From Polyangiaceae bacterium (GTDB lineage: Bacteria > Myxococcota_A > Polyangia > Polyangiales > Polyangiaceae): a DNA stretch of 64,000 nucleotides. The notes below the pieces were generated by a model, which saw nothing but the letters and a program-made list of their open reading frames with translations, had not been told where the DNA came from and did not search any database. Location of the stretch: contig JADLEQ010000107.1 in the NCBI GenBank assembly GCA_020846005.1, positions 62,001 through 126,000 on the forward strand, in the 5' to 3' direction. Shown piece by piece: positions 2,930 to 10,381 of the stretch; position 1 is the first letter of the stretch, and each line of letters begins with the position of its first letter. A program made the translations under genes and the position numbers.

Positions 2930-4540
2930 ATGGGCTTCTCACTCGAGCTGGCGCTCCGCTACCTGGGGTCGAAGAAGCGCGACTTCGTGTCGCTCGGCAC
3001 GGTCTTCGCCATCCTCGGGGTGTCCATCGGCGTCGCGGCCCTCACCACGGTCGTGAGCGTCACGGGCGGCTTCCGCGCGCAGTTCCGCGACAAGGTGCTG
3101 GGCGTCAACGCGCACGTCCTCGTGCTGAAGCACACGAGCGACTTCCGCGAGTACCGGGACGTGATGGATCAGGTGCGCGACGTCCCGGGGGTGATCGGCA
3201 TCGCACCGTTCGTGATCAACCCGATGATGGTCACCCGCGGCGACCGGACCGCAACCGGCGTGCTCCTGAAGGGTGTCGACCCGGAGCGGATGGGCGAGGT
3301 GCTCGATCTGCCACGGTACGTGGTGCGGGGCTCGCTCGACGGGCTCCGGCTCGCCGGATCGCGGCCTCCCGCGCAGCGCCGCAGCTCGGCGCTCGACGAT
3401 CCCTGGAGCGTGAAGCGCCGTCCGCTCCCGGCGGCCTCGGGAGGCGCACGCGACGAGCCGGACGGAGGCGTGCCGTTCCTGAAGGCGCTCGAGCGTGCGA
3501 TCGCGTCGGACGGCGGCGCGACGGCGGCCGACGCGGGCGTCGATCACCGGGACGCGGGCGCGGGACCAGCCGACGCGGGCGCCGACTCGGACGACGACCC
3601 CGCCGCGGAGCTGGGCGCGCCCATCGGCGACGTGGAGCCGGACGGCGGGTACGCGAGCGTCCTGCCCGATGACGACGACGACGATCTGCCTGCGGACGTG
3701 GATCCCGATCCGTGCGCGAGCGCGGAGGCGGCGGGAGCGCTCCCGGGGATCGTCATCGGATCGACGCTCGAGCGCACGCTCGACGCGAAGGTCGGCGACT
3801 GCGTACAGGTGACCTCGCCGACGATCGGGTTCTCGTATCGGCGCGGCGCGATGCGCGCCCCGGTCGCGAAGCAGTTCCGGGTGATCGCGATCTTCGAGGC
3901 CGGCTTCGACCAGTACGACTCGAAGCTGGTGTACACCGATCTCTACGAGGCCCAGGCGTTCGCGGACTCCGGCGACAGCGTGACCGGCGTCGAGATGAAG
4001 ATCGCCGACATCGACCGCGCGAAGGAGGTCGGGGTGGCGCTCGAGGCCAAGCTCGCGAACGGGGTCTACAACATCGTGGACTGGGAGGAGCTGAACCGTG
4101 GCCTCTTCACCGCGCTGCGCATCCAACAGATCCTGATGAGCATCGTCCTCGGCCTCATCATCGTCGTCGCCGCGTTCACCGTCATCGCAACCCTCATCAT
4201 GGTCGTCCTCGACAAGAAGAAGGAGATCGCGGTGCTGAAGGCGATGGGAGCGACGGACGGCGCGCTGCTCCGCGCGTTCCTGTGGCAGGGGGCGATCATC
4301 GGCGGCGTGGGGACGGGCGTCGGGCTGCTGCTCGGGTGGGCGAGCTGTCGCGGACTCGAGGTGTGGGGGTTCCCCCTGGATCCGAAGGTCTATTTCATCT
4401 CGAAGCTCCCGGTGCAGATGCGGCTCGACCAGTTCGGATGGATCGGGCTCTTCGCGCTCCTCGTGTGTGTGGGCGCGACGGTTTGGCCGGCGCTCCACGC
4501 CGCGCGCCTGCGGCCGGCGGAGGCGTTCCGCGAGGTCTGA
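2930..4540 (+). CDS. LolC/LolE/FtsX-family ABC transporter permease with large acidic periplasmic insert
   Basis: Predicted inner-membrane permease of 536 residues, from the family that releases lipoproteins (LolC/E) or remodels the envelope (MacB/FtsX). The N-terminus matches LolC/E: YLGSKKRDFVSLGTVFAI, then a first helix with GVSIGVAALTTVVSVTGGF. Three more helices sit at the C-terminus, with the DKKKEIAVLKAMGATDG motif between them. Usual family length is about 410 residues; the extra comes from roughly residues 140-270, an Asp/Ala/Gly-rich insert in the periplasmic domain that contains a run of six Asp. The start is the ATG at 2930, because the family-like sequence begins there and the upstream frame is low-complexity. 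No LolD-type ATPase gene is adjacent. It converges with the receiver-domain gene at 4566. Confidence 0.88.
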   Translation: MGFSLELALRYLGSKKRDFVSLGTVFAILGVSIGVAALTTVVSVTGGFRAQFRDKVLGVNAHVLVLKHTSDFREYRDVMDQVRDVPGVIGIAPFVINPMMVTRGDRTATGVLLKGVDPERMGEVLDLPRYVVRGSLDGLRLAGSRPPAQRRSSALDDPWSVKRRPLPAASGGARDEPDGGVPFLKALERAIASDGGATAADAGVDHRDAGAGPADAGADSDDDPAAELGAPIGDVEPDGGYASVLPDDDDDDLPADVDPDPCASAEAAGALPGIVIGSTLERTLDAKVGDCVQVTSPTIGFSYRRGAMRAPVAKQFRVIAIFEAGFDQYDSKLVYTDLYEAQAFADSGDSVTGVEMKIADIDRAKEVGVALEAKLANGVYNIVDWEELNRGLFTALRIQQILMSIVLGLIIVVAAFTVIATLIMVVLDKKKEIAVLKAMGATDGALLRAFLWQGAIIGGVGTGVGLLLGWASCRGLEVWGFPLDPKVYFISKLPVQMRLDQFGWIGLFALLVCVGATVWPALHAARLRPAEAFREV

Positions 4541-4567
4541 TCCCGGCGCGGCAGCCGCGGGAGGATC
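4539..4567. terminator. Possible bidirectional terminator between convergent genes
   Basis: An inverted repeat (GATCC...GCGG, then CCGC...GGATC, with internal mismatches) lies exactly between the stop codons of the permease and the receiver-domain gene. It has no T tract, so it is only a candidate. Confidence 0.3.
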
Positions 4568-5306
4568 AGCTCGACGCGGGGAGCAGCGACCGCCGCAGGA
4601 GCCCCACGACGCGCGCGCCGAGCTCGGGCGCACGGAACGGCTTCGGCACGAAGTCATCCGCGCCGGCCTCGCGCGCAGCCTCGAGATCGCGCGCCGTCGC
4701 GTGGGCGGTGAGGAGCAGGACGGGCACGTGTGAGAGCGTCGGATCCGATCGGACACGGCGACACATCTCGAGCGCGCTCATCCCGGGCAGGCCGGCGTCG
4801 GCGACGACGAGCTCGAAGCCATCCCGCCGGAGCACGTCCAGCGCCTCCTCGCCGCTCGAGGCGATGCAAGCGTCGACGCCGGCCTTCGCCAGGATGCGCG
4901 AGACGAGTCGCGCGAGCGCGACATCGCCGTCCACGACGAGGACCCGCGCCCCGGCCGCGCGGCACCGGCACGTCTCCTCCTCGCTCGGCGGCGGGACGGA
5001 CGCCGGACACCCCTCACCGACGAATTCGAGCAGGTGACACCAGTCGCGCTCGGCGAAGGCGAGCTCGAGACCCTCTCCGTGATCGCAGACGTGGCCCGCG
5101 ACGGCGGTCGTCGCTTCGCCGACCACGAACGTGACCAGCACCCACTCGCCGTCCCGGGCCTCCTGACCTCCCGGCACGGGGAGGCAGCAGTCGGGGGCTC
5201 CTGCCTGGAGCGAGCTCGCCAGCTCGGTGGCGTCTCCGACCTCGTACCGTAGGCCGCGCAAGGCGGGCGGAAGATAGCGCGAGGCGAGCGACGCGCCAGG
5301 CCTCAA
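4566..5306 (-). CDS. Response regulator: PilZ-like N-terminal domain plus receiver domain
   Basis: About 246 residues from a TTG start at 5306. The first ~115 residues contain a stretch resembling a PilZ-type beta domain (WVLVTFVVGEATTAVAGHV, then LELAFAERDWCHLLEF). A receiver domain follows, from VLVVDGD through the likely phospho-acceptor in DAGLPGMSALE, then LLLTAHA and the conserved lysine in PKPF. There is no DNA-binding output domain. The TTG overlaps the TGA stop of the upstream membrane-protein gene (TTGA), the same 4-nt coupling seen at the two earlier junctions of this operon, which is why this start was chosen. A TTG at 5266 is the alternative. It may signal by protein contact or cyclic-di-GMP binding; the PilZ assignment is tentative. 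Confidence 0.78.
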   Translation of the reverse strand: MRPGASLASRYLPPALRGLRYEVGDATELASSLQAGAPDCCLPVPGGQEARDGEWVLVTFVVGEATTAVAGHVCDHGEGLELAFAERDWCHLLEFVGEGCPASVPPPSEEETCRCRAAGARVLVVDGDVALARLVSRILAKAGVDACIASSGEEALDVLRRDGFELVVADAGLPGMSALEMCRRVRSDPTLSHVPVLLLTAHATARDLEAAREAGADDFVPKPFRAPELGARVVGLLRRSLLPASS

Positions 5307-5974
5307 GGAGGCGTGCGGAGGAGCACGAACACCCAGCAGACCAACCCGAGCCCCGCCAGCCAGGGCGCGGAGGCGTACAGGGGAAGGTCCAGGATCGGCT
5401 CGGACACGGCGAGGGCGCGGAGCGGGCCGCGCGGCACCGCGAGCGAGGTCGCGCCGCCGACGGCCCCGAGGACCCAATCGACCGCGACGAAGAGCCCCGG
5501 ACCGACCGCCCCGAGCCTCGCGCCGGCCAGCACCCAGGCGAAGTACGCGGCCCCACCGAGCGCCCCGAGCCCCGCGCTCACGACGAGATCGGGGGCGAGC
5601 TGCGGATCGGAAGGGACGCGCGACGTCGCCACGCCGAGTACCGCAAGGAACATGCCAGCTCCGGCGGCGACCGCGCTCCCCGCCAGGCCGATCGCGACCA
5701 GCGCCCGGCGGCGGCTCACGCCGTGGCGCGCCCACGGGTAGAGCGCGAGGTCCAGCTGCCCGGGGAGCAGCGCGCGCAGGAGCGCGAACGCGAGCAGGGG
5801 GACGCCGACCCCGAGCGCGGCGTGGGCGACGGCGGGGTCGCTGCCGTACCCGGGAACCCCACGCCCAGCGACCCCGCTCGCCGCCACGAGCGCAGCCGCA
5901 GCGGCGACCCAGCCGACCTCGCGCCCTCCGAGGCGGCCGAGCGCGGCCCGGGCGGCGACGCGCGCGGTGCTCAT
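5303..5974 (-). CDS. Multi-helix membrane protein, second membrane subunit of an ABC-2-like operon
   Basis: 223 residues, starting at an ATG that overlaps the stop of the ABC-like ATPase gene (ATGA, 5971-5974). About six hydrophobic segments are visible, including VGWVAAAAALVAASGVAG, ALVAIGLAGSAVAAGAGMFL and a C-terminal LAGLGLVCWVFVLL, so it is an integral inner-membrane protein. No recognised domain could be read. Position suggests it is one of the two membrane subunits that work with the ATPase-like protein encoded just upstream. Its stop overlaps the TTG of the receiver-domain gene. It could equally be an unrelated membrane protein; function unknown. Confidence 0.82.
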   Translation of the reverse strand: MSTARVAARAALGRLGGREVGWVAAAAALVAASGVAGRGVPGYGSDPAVAHAALGVGVPLLAFALLRALLPGQLDLALYPWARHGVSRRRALVAIGLAGSAVAAGAGMFLAVLGVATSRVPSDPQLAPDLVVSAGLGALGGAAYFAWVLAGARLGAVGPGLFVAVDWVLGAVGGATSLAVPRGPLRALAVSEPILDLPLYASAPWLAGLGLVCWVFVLLRTPP

Positions 5975-7026
5975 GGGGCGTCCCCGTCGGCCTCGGGGGC
6001 CGGGCGCGCGCCGCCGTCTGCGGAGCTCGCGCCGCTCGATCGCGAGGGCACCGCGGGCGCCACGGCGGCCCGGACGCGCGCGAGCTGCTCGCTGCGCGCG
6101 GCCTCCCAGGCTCCACGCGCCAGGCCCGCGGCTGCGGCCGCGGCCTCGGCGAGCGTGGGGATCCGGGGCTCGACTCGCACGAGCCGCGCGCCGCTGGCGA
6201 GCGCGGCCCGTGCGAGCGCGAGTCCGAGGAGCGCGCGGTCCGGACCGGCGACCGTCAGGCGCCCGCCCGCGGTCGCGTCGAGCGCCACCCGACCGACCGC
6301 CGAGTCCGTCGCGAGCGCGGCGAGGAGCGCGCGCGCGTCGGTGGAGGTGACGAGCAGCTCGGTCGCGCCGGGGGCCGCCCCTACGCCGAGCGGCTGCGGG
6401 ATGGAGCGAACGACGCGCCCACCGAGCAGGAGGGTGACCGGCGCGCCGAGGCGCGCGGCGTCGACGGGCGACGAGGTGACGACCAGCGCGCACACCCCGC
6501 GCCGCGCCGCCTCGCGAAGCCGCGCGAGCGTCGAGCGCACGCGATCCGCGCCGTACGCGAGCGGCTCGTGCAGCACGAGGACCTCGGGCAGCGGATCGGC
6601 GAGCGCGAGCGCCAGGACGACCGCGCGGCAGCTCCATGCGTCGAGCCGCGAGCACCGGGCCGACGCGAGGTGCCCCAGGCCGGCACGCTCGAGCGCCGCG
6701 CGCGCGCCGCCGCGCGCGCCACGCGACGCGACGGCGAGCTCGACGGCCGCCTCCACGGTCGAGTCACCCGAGAGCACCTCGGCGGGGAGCAGCACACCCA
6801 TCCGACGACGCACCGCCGGCCGGCGATGCGGATCGGCGCCGAGGACCCGCACACGCCCTCGCCGGGGCGCGCGGACCCCTGCCACCCGGTCGACGAGTAC
6901 GTCGGCGCCGTCCGTCCGCCGCCCGAGGACGACGTGGAGGCCGGGCCCGAGCTGCAGGTCGACCCCCACCAGCGGGTCGTCGCTCACGCCCGCGACCGAC
7001 ACGATGGCCTCCGCCGCGCCGCTCAT
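5971..7026 (-). CDS. Degenerate (pseudo) ABC ATPase of the ABC-2/DrrA type
   Basis: 351 residues whose overall pattern follows an ABC-2 exporter ATPase, but each catalytic motif is altered. The Walker A position reads LGRRTDGADVLV, with no GK[ST]. The signature position reads SRLDAWSCRAV instead of LSGGQ. Walker B reads VLVLHEP, with His where the metal-binding Asp should be. The switch region reads VVTSSPVDAA, with no His. The C-terminal ~120 residues (from about ATELLVTSTDARALL to RIPTLAEAAA) resemble the DUF4162-like tail of DrrA/GldA-type ATPases. This domain order argues that it descends from a real ABC ATPase. The gene lies between two membrane-protein genes and overlaps both by ATGA. 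Inference: it is a non-hydrolysing scaffold or regulator; alternatively ATP binding uses unusual residues. Confidence 0.75.
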   Translation of the reverse strand: MSGAAEAIVSVAGVSDDPLVGVDLQLGPGLHVVLGRRTDGADVLVDRVAGVRAPRRGRVRVLGADPHRRPAVRRRMGVLLPAEVLSGDSTVEAAVELAVASRGARGGARAALERAGLGHLASARCSRLDAWSCRAVVLALALADPLPEVLVLHEPLAYGADRVRSTLARLREAARRGVCALVVTSSPVDAARLGAPVTLLLGGRVVRSIPQPLGVGAAPGATELLVTSTDARALLAALATDSAVGRVALDATAGGRLTVAGPDRALLGLALARAALASGARLVRVEPRIPTLAEAAAAAAGLARGAWEAARSEQLARVRAAVAPAVPSRSSGASSADGGARPAPEADGDAP

Positions 7027-7697
7027 GTCCCGGCTCCGAGGCGCGCTAGCCAGGCCGTGGTCGCCGTGATCGCGCGCGCGGGACCGGGGGCGCCCGGCCA
7101 CGCCGCGGCCGCGAGCTCCGCCGAGGCGACCAGCGCGACCAGCGCCGCGCGCGGGCGGGACGGCGCGATCGCCGCGGCGGCGCCCGCGAGGGCGGCGCCG
7201 AGCGCGCCGAGCGCGCCCGTGAGGACGATCGCGAGCGCGCCCACCCCGAGCCGCGTGATCAGCGACTGCCCGCTCGGCGAGAGCGCGGCCGAGGCGACGA
7301 GCAACGGCCCGACGGGGCGGAGCGCCGCCATGCCGATCACGACGGCCGCGGCGACGAACCGCGCCGCGCTCGTGGGGCCCGCGCGCTCGCCTCGCGTCGC
7401 CGCGAGCATCGCGACCCCAGCCGCTGGACCCTCGCCGAGCGCGGCCACGACCGAGAAGGTGGTGAGCCCGCCCAGCCAGAGCGCTGCGGAGCCGAGCGCG
7501 GCGGCCGCGACGCCGTCGACGAGCGCGCGCCCGCCGGGCGCGGCGGCCACGACACCGAGCGCCACGCCGTGGCCGAGCAGGAGCGACCACCCGAGCGCTC
7601 GCGCGACGCGCGCGCCCGTCCGCTCGCGGAGCGAGCGCGCCTCGACACGCGCGAGCGCGCAGAGGCGGCGACCGAGGCTCGGAGGTGGAGGGGACAA
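7023..7697 (-). CDS. Multi-helix membrane protein, first gene of the pseudo-ABC operon
   Basis: 224 residues from a TTG start (7697). Five or six hydrophobic segments are visible, for example ALVALVASAELAAAAW near the C-terminus and GALAIVLTGALGALGAALAG before it; the N-terminus is Arg-rich and cytoplasmic-looking. No family could be read with confidence. The stop overlaps the ATG of the ABC-like ATPase gene (ATGA at 7023-7026). It heads a four-gene unit (membrane protein, ATPase-like, membrane protein, receiver protein). The TTG start is the first in-frame candidate in front of the hydrophobic part and has no clear ribosome-binding site. The VWA-protein gene diverges 86 bp away. Confidence 0.78.
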   Translation of the reverse strand: MSPPPPSLGRRLCALARVEARSLRERTGARVARALGWSLLLGHGVALGVVAAAPGGRALVDGVAAAALGSAALWLGGLTTFSVVAALGEGPAAGVAMLAATRGERAGPTSAARFVAAAVVIGMAALRPVGPLLVASAALSPSGQSLITRLGVGALAIVLTGALGALGAALAGAAAAIAPSRPRAALVALVASAELAAAAWPGAPGPARAITATTAWLARLGAGT

Positions 7698-7783: not shown

Positions 7784-10381
7784 ATGCGCCTGGGATCGAG
7801 CTGGACGTTTGCGGTCGTGCTGGCGGCGGGTGTGGCGCAGGCGGCGTGCGGCGGGGGCGCCGATGCCCCGCCGCCGAGCGGCGGCGGCGCGTCCGCGGGG
7901 CCCGGGGGGAGCGGCGCCGCGGAGGCAGGCACCGACGCCTCGTCCGGCGGGGGTGGCTCGGGCGGCACCGCCGGCGACGGCGGCCCCGGCGGGACCTCGG
8001 GGACGGGCGGGGGCGGCACGGGCGCGTTCGGCGGGTTCGGGGGCTCGAGCGGCGACGGCGGGCTGGACTCCGGGGACGCTGGCTCGGCGCCGCTCTGTCC
8101 GCCGGACGAAGACGGCGACGACATCCCCGACGAGGTCGAGGGCAAGGCGACCGGGGTCGACACCGACAACGACGGGACGCCGGACTGGCAGGACCCCGAC
8201 AGCGACGACGACGGGATCCCGGACGCCGTGGAGCGAGGCGACGCTCGGTACGAGGGCTGCAACCTGGTGCCCGACGCCGACTTCGACGGGGTGCCCAACA
8301 CACGCGACGACGACAGCGACGGCAACGGCATCGACGACGCGGACGAGGTGTACCCCGACGGCGCGCCCTACGACCCGGGGACGCCCCCCTCCGACGTGGA
8401 CGGCGACGGCACCCCCGACCTGTACGACACCGACGACGACGGCGACACGTTCGACGACACCGTGGAGCTCGTCGGAGGCGCGCCGGTCGACACGGACAGC
8501 GACGGCAAGTGGGATCACCAGGACATCGACTCGGACGGCGACAACCTCGGCGACGAGTACGAGACCTTCGCGGACGCAGACGCGGACGGCAAGCCGAACC
8601 TCCGCGACCTCGACAGCGACAAGGACGGCGTCCCCGACGCGTGCGAGGCGGGCTTCCTCGCCGACCCAACGCGCCCCCCGGCGAACAGCGACGGCGACAA
8701 CAAGTACGACGCCTTCGACGTGGACGCCGACAACGACGGGCTCAAGGACGGCCTCGAGGACACGAACTTCGACTGCCTCGTGAACGTCGGCGAGACGGAC
8801 CGGACGAAGTACGACACCGACGCCGATGGCGCGAACGACCTCATCGAGGTGACGCTGGGGAGCGACCCGAGCAACAAGTTCGAGACGCCGCAGTCGCTCG
8901 GCAAGTACTACTTCGTGATGCCCTACCAGGAGCCCGCGCAGCCGGTCTCCCAGGATGTCGTCCTCCGCACGAACTTCTCCAAGGCAGACATCGCGTTCAT
9001 CGTAGACACCACCGGATCGATGGGGCCCGCGATCGACAACATCAAGGCGAACCTCTCGGCGATCGTCACCGCCGTGGCGGAAGACGCCCCGGAGGCGCGC
9101 TTCGGCGTCCTCGGGACGGAGGACTACCCCGTCACGCCCTACGGCGCGACCGGCGCGTTCGGCAACCGCCCGGTCTACCTGCCCGGCCCCACGGCGTACC
9201 TCTCGTCCCAGACGGCGGACACCCTGGCCGCGCTCAACGCGATGGTGCCGTTCGACGGCGCGGACAACGTCGAGGCGCAGATCCCGGCGATGTGGAAGGC
9301 CTTGACCAACGGGACGCTCACCTGGCCGGCCGGGGGACTGCAGGGCCCGTTCAGCCCGAGCTCGGGCTACGGGGCCCTGGGCTTCCGCGACGACGCGCTC
9401 CCCATCCTCGTCCTGGTCAGCGGGACGATCTTCCACAACGGGCGCTACGTCGCGGACTCCACGGGCATCCACGACCCGTACACGTTCAACGGCCCCGGCG
9501 CGACCGATCCGCCCGACATCGACGACCTGCTCGCCGTCATGGAGACGACCAAGGCGAAATTTCTCGGTGTCGCGCTGGACGGCGGCGGCCAGCAGCGCAC
9601 GGACGACGACTCCATCTACGGGGACATGGCGACGATCGCCGAGGCGACCAACTCCATCGTGCTCCCCGGCGAGGCGTTCCCCTACGTGAGCCAGGGCGGG
9701 ACGTCCGTCCCCGAGACGCAGTGCCGCACGGAGATCGCCGGCGGGGCCCGCAACCCGGACACCGTCTATTCGGTCGTCGGACAGCCGGACGTGCCCGCGT
9801 GTCGGCTCATCTTCTCGAGCTACGCCACGGGCGCGGCCGCGGGCAGCACGGTGAAGGACGGCCTGCGCGCGCTGCTGCGCGGCATCAAGCTGGAGGTCCG
9901 GGTCCTCGCGACGCCCGTCCAGACGCCGGCGCTCGTCTGCAACTCCGTAGTCATCGACACCGTCGCGGATTTCATCGAGGACGACCCGGCGACCGTCTCG
10001 GTGAAGGAGGGCATCCAGGTGAACCACGCCCCGGTCGGGATCGCCGATCCGTCCGATCCGAACGCCAACCGTTACTGCGAGGTCATCGACCTGTTGGACC
10101 TGCGCGACCAGTACTGCGGCGCCCGAGGCCTGATCGGCGGCAACCCGGCGTGCGGTGACTCCCTGAACGAGGCGGTCACGGACATCCCGGCCGGCGTCCT
10201 CGTCTGCTTCAAGATCACCCCGCGGCGCAACAAGGTCTGCCCCCAGCTCGCCGACGTGCAGGTCGCCCGGGCGGTGCTCGAGATCAAGGCCAAGACGGAC
10301 CTCACGGACCCGAACGCGCCCGAGCTGTCGGTGGGTCAGCCTCGCGACGTGTTCTTCGTGATCCCGCCGATCTTCCAGTGA
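7784..10381 (+). CDS. Secreted VWA-domain protein with Asp-rich calcium-binding-type repeats
   Basis: 865 residues. The ATG at 7784 follows a GAAGGAG ribosome-binding site and opens a signal sequence ending near AQAAC, which may be a loose lipobox. A Gly/Ser-rich linker spans about residues 25-100. A long run of thrombospondin-type-3-like Asp motifs follows (DxDxDGxxD spacing, e.g. DNDGTPDWQDPDSDDDGIPD) at about 105-365, expected to bind calcium. A von Willebrand factor A domain begins near residue 400 with IAFIVDTTGSMGPAI, where DTTGS fits the MIDAS metal site. The remaining ~240 residues have paired Cys and no recognised fold. It is probably a cell-surface adhesion or structural protein. 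Upstream in-frame codons from 7685 are less likely because they precede the signal peptide. Confidence 0.88.
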   Translation: MRLGSSWTFAVVLAAGVAQAACGGGADAPPPSGGGASAGPGGSGAAEAGTDASSGGGGSGGTAGDGGPGGTSGTGGGGTGAFGGFGGSSGDGGLDSGDAGSAPLCPPDEDGDDIPDEVEGKATGVDTDNDGTPDWQDPDSDDDGIPDAVERGDARYEGCNLVPDADFDGVPNTRDDDSDGNGIDDADEVYPDGAPYDPGTPPSDVDGDGTPDLYDTDDDGDTFDDTVELVGGAPVDTDSDGKWDHQDIDSDGDNLGDEYETFADADADGKPNLRDLDSDKDGVPDACEAGFLADPTRPPANSDGDNKYDAFDVDADNDGLKDGLEDTNFDCLVNVGETDRTKYDTDADGANDLIEVTLGSDPSNKFETPQSLGKYYFVMPYQEPAQPVSQDVVLRTNFSKADIAFIVDTTGSMGPAIDNIKANLSAIVTAVAEDAPEARFGVLGTEDYPVTPYGATGAFGNRPVYLPGPTAYLSSQTADTLAALNAMVPFDGADNVEAQIPAMWKALTNGTLTWPAGGLQGPFSPSSGYGALGFRDDALPILVLVSGTIFHNGRYVADSTGIHDPYTFNGPGATDPPDIDDLLAVMETTKAKFLGVALDGGGQQRTDDDSIYGDMATIAEATNSIVLPGEAFPYVSQGGTSVPETQCRTEIAGGARNPDTVYSVVGQPDVPACRLIFSSYATGAAAGSTVKDGLRALLRGIKLEVRVLATPVQTPALVCNSVVIDTVADFIEDDPATVSVKEGIQVNHAPVGIADPSDPNANRYCEVIDLLDLRDQYCGARGLIGGNPACGDSLNEAVTDIPAGVLVCFKITPRRNKVCPQLADVQVARAVLEIKAKTDLTDPNAPELSVGQPRDVFFVIPPIFQ
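8095..8880 (+). repeat. Asp-rich type-3-like repeat tract in the VWA protein
   Basis: Imperfect coding repeats of DxDxDGxxD motifs in the VWA protein gene. They are degenerate at DNA level but regular in protein; the aspartate spacing fits calcium-binding loops. Confidence 0.75.

Follow-up and report, generated by a model that had tools for sequence, protein, structure and literature searches.

To our knowledge, the known ATP-binding cassette (ABC) transporters with degenerate sites retain one working ATP site. Among the ABC-2 (type V) exporters, NosFY of the NosDFY system has one kind of transmembrane (TM) subunit, NosY, and an ATPase, NosF, whose E154Q mutant traps ATP (PDB 7o17), and the members of the ABCA family (ABCA1, ABCA3, ABCA4 and ABCA7) are single chains with two nucleotide-binding domains (NBDs) in an NBD plus R-domain architecture. 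In the degenerate-site exporters Pdr5, TAP, TM287/288 and ABCG5/G8, catalytic residues have been lost under selection, one canonical site is kept through an intact partner NBD (PMC7756269), and a good signature is retained by the NBD whose Walker motifs are bad. In the degenerate NBD1 of Pdr5, Cys stands in place of the Walker A Lys and Tyr in place of the switch His, and the working site is supplied by the intact partner NBD (PMC7756269). The present analysis deals with a three-gene cassette encoding two membrane proteins (TM1 and TM2) and, between them, an NBD homologue designated psi-NBD, in a DNA stretch of 64,000 nucleotides from a Polyangiaceae bacterium (GenBank assembly GCA_020846005.1, contig JADLEQ010000107.1, positions 62,001 to 126,000 of the forward strand), which is called the window below. 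As far as was found, the ABC exporter architecture of this cassette is known, but no description is apparent of a cassette that is conserved and has a dead NBD as its only one. It is proposed, with a probability of about one half, that its products form a pseudoATPase complex of the NosFY/ABCA type which serves as an ATP-independent scaffold or relay.

The cassette runs on the minus strand from 7697 to 5303 in the order TM1 (7023..7697, 224 aa, with an uncertain TTG start), psi-NBD (5971..7026, 351 aa) and TM2 (5303..5974, 223 aa). Exact 4-base ATGA stop/start overlaps join TM1 to psi-NBD (7023..7026, minus strand) and psi-NBD to TM2 (5971..5974, minus strand), at the same offset in most homologous loci; the three open reading frames (ORFs) and these two junctions had been given correctly in a preliminary description of the window. 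In psi-NBD, Walker A reads LGRRTDGADVL, with the Lys gone, the signature reads LDAWSCR, with the glycines gone, Walker B reads VLVLHEP, with His in place of Asp and the catalytic Glu and the Pro (Glu154-Pro155) intact, and the switch reads VTSS, with the His gone. As a control, PF00005 domains were sought in the rest of the genome and the 42 strongest were taken; the Walker A and B patterns were matched by script in 41 of them, and the 42nd reads APNGAGKS ... LLLLDEP. Since the Walker A Lys is intact in all 42, psi-NBD is a clear outlier among the ABC domains of its own genome.

Homologues were gathered from the Polyangiaceae, the taxonomic family of the window, and the motifs were counted over 72 distinct loci. 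The Walker A Lys and the switch His were each found in none of them (0/72), and the Walker B Asp in 7/72; the second Gly of the signature was also present in 7/72 only, and this region now reads L-S-x-x-E-x-R. The catalytic Glu was found in 69/72 (Asp in the other 3) and the Pro in 72/72. The preliminary description had called this ATPase fully degenerate, and the losses of the Walker A Lys, the signature, the Walker B Asp and the switch His which it listed are all present, but the term is too strong because the Walker B Glu and Pro persist. The former P-loop reads G-x-x-x-D-G in most loci (D in 61/72 and the second G in 62/72; the D-G is lacking in L048, L088, L098 and L112). Upon ranking by conservation, the top positions included E154, P155, D39, R134, residue 132 (Glu in 60/72, Ser in the window protein) and T184. 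As residues of the former ATP site stand among these positions, the site is conserved in a new form and seems to be still in use. The Walker A Lys is also missing in nine further loci, two of which are from another family of the order, and a single-protein scan of the genome contigs matched three Polyangium loci. The altered motifs are therefore a family trait and not local decay: the homologue search proposed earlier returned 72 loci with the same losses and, in nearly all, the membrane genes on both sides, and close relatives with intact Walker motifs, by which the degeneracy could have been explained as decay in this genome, were absent. In L180, L181, L172 and L173, NBD relatives were observed which are altered further, some with a Walker B of LLDEG or LLSFPE, and which still lie between TM1 and TM2 genes.

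By profile, psi-NBD is matched weakly by the NCBIfam ABC models over the right span (best 7e-9), and PF00005 is matched by 52/65 of its relatives and not by the window protein itself. An AlphaFold2 model obtained with an alignment of 65 natural sequences had a mean pLDDT of 91.1 and a pTM of 0.85. Foldseek returned 1127 PDB matches below 0.001 for this model, and among the 50 matches listed almost all were annotated as ABC proteins. By VIA-align, Z values of 24.4, 24.2 and 23.7 were obtained to TM_1403, to NosF over 288 residues (model 7-304 on NosF 2-299) and to ABCA4 over 293 residues, respectively; in the profile search, the best sequence-profile matches came from the ABCA family (ABCA7, 8e-45). 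Because the alignments to NosF and ABCA4 extend over 288 and 293 residues, the C-terminal domain is assigned to the NosF/R-domain kind, and psi-NBD as modelled is an ABC NBD carrying a NosF/ABCA R-domain-like C-terminal domain. The ABC fold order and the DUF4162-like tail recognized earlier are thus supported structurally, the former by the confidence of the model and Z values of about 24 to solved NBDs, the latter by the NosF/R-domain alignment (no Pfam match to DUF4162 was seen in psi-NBD); the structure prediction of the 351-residue protein alone, which had been suggested as a check, gave an ABC fold and not a different one. The likeness to DrrA and GldA ATPases is that of the same broad NBD class; psi-NBD matches the drrA model at 6.9e-5, but lies far below its cut-off (22 of 312 bits) and lacks the catalytic motifs.

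No Pfam family was found for TM2. Its model (pLDDT 94.3) was aligned to NosY with a Z of 19.3 over 220/223 residues at 2.9 A, followed by ABCG and ABCA transporters and CcmB, the TM domains of ABCA proteins giving Z values of 14-16; the Foldseek E-values were weak (best 0.018), with NosY and other ABC exporters in the top rows. TM2 is thus predicted to be a six-helix, NosY-like TM subunit of the ABC-2/type V exporters, and the cytoplasmic coupling helix and the re-entrant helices looked for as NosFY-like features are found in the model. Since psi-NBD is NosF/ABCA-like and TM2 matches NosY over nearly its whole length, the cassette is, on these models, a relative of the ABC-2/type V exporters. 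TM1 is a putative divergent ABC-2-like permease subunit; it has a motif, D-R-x-x-G-x-x-x-L-A-x-x-R-G-x-S, at the place of the coupling helix of relatives, and matches weakly (7e-4) the TM1 of a canonical system in the locus L174.

Compared with NosFY, the cassette has two different TM subunits instead of one kind, no NosD gene was seen at its locus, and psi-NBD lacks the Walker A Lys, signature Gly and switch His, whereas NosF is an ATPase. Compared with the ABCA proteins, it consists of separate subunits with a single degenerate NBD. Unlike the degenerate-site exporters, the locus encodes no intact partner, and psi-NBD has lost the signature together with the Walker motifs; in NBD1 of Pdr5 the Walker B Glu is lost, whereas in psi-NBD it is kept. 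No described family for the cassette was found in Pfam or NCBIfam, PADLOC returned nothing for the three proteins, and no described pseudoATPase ABC system of this kind was found in the open-access literature, in agreement with the earlier remark that no family with such content was known.

The integrity of the unit was assessed across the homologous loci. psi-NBD is flanked by membrane genes in nearly all of them, with 4-base overlaps on both sides in most, and in two genomes (L043 and L114) psi-NBD and TM2 form a single ORF as natural fusions. A candidate TM1-psi-NBD fusion in L172 was rejected because its ORF is out of frame in the middle, which points to a frameshift or an overlap. TM2 was detected in 86/108 Polyangiaceae genomes, as a single copy in nearly all; outside the family it was clearly present in two other genomes of the order only, and the sampled genomes from the rest of the phylum gave borderline matches only. 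Pairwise dN/dS values between close relatives, as simple Nei-Gojobori estimates on G+C-rich genes, were about 0.1-0.4 in 11/12 pairs, alike for TM1, psi-NBD and TM2, and the cassette is under purifying selection. The earlier view of a working unit rather than decay is upheld by the 72 homologues with the same losses, by this selection, and by the conservation of the junctions and of the membrane genes on either side.

In a tree of 67 sequences built by maximum likelihood, the bootstrap of which is not fully settled, one branch (support 99/97) splits 50 degenerate from 17 intact NBDs; the motif loss has one origin, with a clean split from working NBDs. The root is most likely on the intact side, because that side includes distant ABC classes. 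Canonical relatives, which are rare within the family, were found at L174:2548-6111 in one of its genomes, with the order ATPase A, TM1-like gene, ATPase B and TM2-like gene and with motifs intact, and, for other families of the order, at L193-L203, where TM2-like genes have an intact ATPase as neighbour. As in the cassette, an ATPase adjoins a TM2-like permease in these systems, and in L174 a TM1-like gene is present too; they differ in that Walker A is intact (GPNGAGKS/GPNGSGKT), TM2 is only distantly similar (8e-8) and L174 has two ATPase genes per operon. The L174-like arrangement is likely to be the kind of ancestor from which the cassette came.

The proposed mechanism is as follows. TM1, psi-NBD and TM2 would assemble into one membrane complex with a NosFY/ABCA-type (ABC-2, type V) architecture, in which most likely two copies of psi-NBD are docked under the coupling helices of a TM1-TM2 pair. 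psi-NBD would have descended from a working ABC ATPase which gave up ATP binding and hydrolysis in an ancestor of these systems of the Polyangiaceae, and the former ATP site would have been rebuilt around the conserved G-x-x-x-D-G, E-P, E-x-R and T-x-S. Such a complex would no longer pump, but would act as an ATP-independent scaffold or as a conformational relay across the inner membrane, the psi-NBD dimer holding or sensing the state of the TM pair and handing it to an envelope or cytosolic partner. Since both halves of the site, the Walker motifs and the signature, are changed in one protein, and none of the neighbourhood types has a gene for an intact NBD at the locus, the simplest reading is a complex that makes no use of ATP and retains its NBD for structural reasons and as a conformational relay, and a non-hydrolysing NosFY-like complex would probably be a regulator or scaffold rather than a pump. 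The more far-reaching form of the proposal, a lineage-wide ABC system working wholly without ATP, with a pseudoATPase of rebuilt and conserved site as its one NBD and with the role of a transmembrane relay, is held a little more tentatively and falls just short of an even chance. A conserved unit in which both halves of the site are gone from the one NBD at the locus would show that the ABC scaffold can be kept for work not driven by ATP, and the cassette is a natural case in which what an NBD does for the structure stands apart from what it does as a motor; with a replacement motif that is conserved, point mutations are a straightforward test.

Several points weigh against the proposal. The unit is dispensable, since 22/108 genomes of the family lack TM2, among them G001, the sole other genome of the window's genus, which has no match to psi-NBD or TM2. 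The permease identity of TM1 is less certain, as only one relative of TM1 matches ABC2_membrane_3 (1.2e-4) and TM1 was aligned to TM2 by hhalign with a probability of 11%. Even without Walker A, the site could be occupied by a nucleotide or by some other ligand, the retained Glu-Pro may hint at residual chemistry, and an intact NBD could come from elsewhere in the genome. The latter points correspond to the main rivals, a re-tooled ligand site and a borrowed motor. If the altered P-loop bound a nucleotide or a different ligand through the conserved Asp-Gly and Glu-Pro and so drove a conformational change, it would be understandable that psi-NBD is conserved at the changed site more than in most of its other parts and carries there a specific replacement motif instead of random residues; but the window protein (S132) and L048, L088, L098 and L112 (no D-G) deviate even from the new motif, and the joint loss of Lys, signature Gly and His makes ordinary ATP chemistry improbable. 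This explanation is considered unlikely. A similarly low likelihood is given to an asymmetric exporter in which the partner of psi-NBD is an intact ABC ATPase from another locus and one working motor is left, as in Pdr5 or TAP. An asymmetric dimer would be natural with TM1 and TM2 being different, the genome has the 42 intact NBD domains of the control, intact ATPases stand beside TM2-like genes in the distant canonical systems, including the two of L174, and NBD1 of Pdr5 works with NBD2 despite its own missing Lys and His (PMC7756269). Against such a pairing, an intact NBD gene is absent from the locus throughout, and, as the signature of psi-NBD is degenerate too, any site that it formed jointly with an intact NBD would again be a poor one.

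A decaying transporter, i.e. an operon on its way to becoming a pseudogene, is already contradicted and is regarded as very improbable. It could be argued for from the low identities of the family's proteins (27-41% when compared with that of the window), from the genomes without TM2, and from L112/L117, a more distant pair with truncated NBD models and dN/dS values of 0.46-0.71; however, frames are open and the same losses are shared in the 72 distinct loci, the remaining pairs have the low dN/dS values given above, and the overlaps and the gene order are conserved. The pseudoATPase scaffold or relay is preferred to all three.

The homologous loci fall into three types of neighbourhood, across which the cassette stays intact and the outer neighbours vary. 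In type (i), to which the window belongs, the order is TPR protein, cassette, receiver protein, LolC/E and kinase; in type (ii), it is NtrC-like regulator, cassette, YceI-like and DUF362-like proteins, the last two being named by sequence appearance (YceI scored only 0.07); in type (iii), there are a divergent regulator and a TM1 that has itself diverged, besides other neighbours. The receiver protein of the window is a response-regulator protein at 4566..5261 (minus strand) with a C-terminal receiver domain and an N-terminal region of about 100 residues without assignment; the protein is conserved in 17 loci. It was found downstream of the cassette in 17/60 long loci, all of type (i), so that the receiver gene, counted earlier as part of the unit, is rejected as an obligatory member and is an optional neighbour. 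The third junction reported for the window, TTGA, exists as letters at 5306-5303 but is probably not the true start of this gene; translational coupling to TM2 through it is doubtful, because the homologous receiver proteins begin at the residue corresponding to TTG 5261, the probable start, and in several relatives the gene starts about 70-90 nt after TM2. A scan for sigma-70 promoters and terminators found none and is uninformative at such a G+C content. The LolC/E-like gene of the window (2930-4540, plus strand) encodes a permease for lipoprotein release into which a large acidic stretch of low complexity is inserted; it matches the lolCE model at 1.1e-85, below cut-off.

On the other side of the cassette, a divergent gene at 7784..10381 (plus strand), sharing its intergenic region with TM1, encodes a CglD-like lipoprotein of 865 aa with TSP3 repeats and a VWA region. 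This large, secreted protein is weakly similar to the gliding lipoprotein CglD of M. xanthus (1e-7, well below the model cut-off). Most homologous loci have no such gene at that position; a VWA/TSP3 gene divergent from TM1 at the same position and distance was found in eight loci, namely the window and L035, L038, L044, L049, L092, L093 and L094. These loci span neighbourhood types (i) and (ii), and the CglD-like lipoprotein is, as a lead only, a possible optional partner of the cassette.

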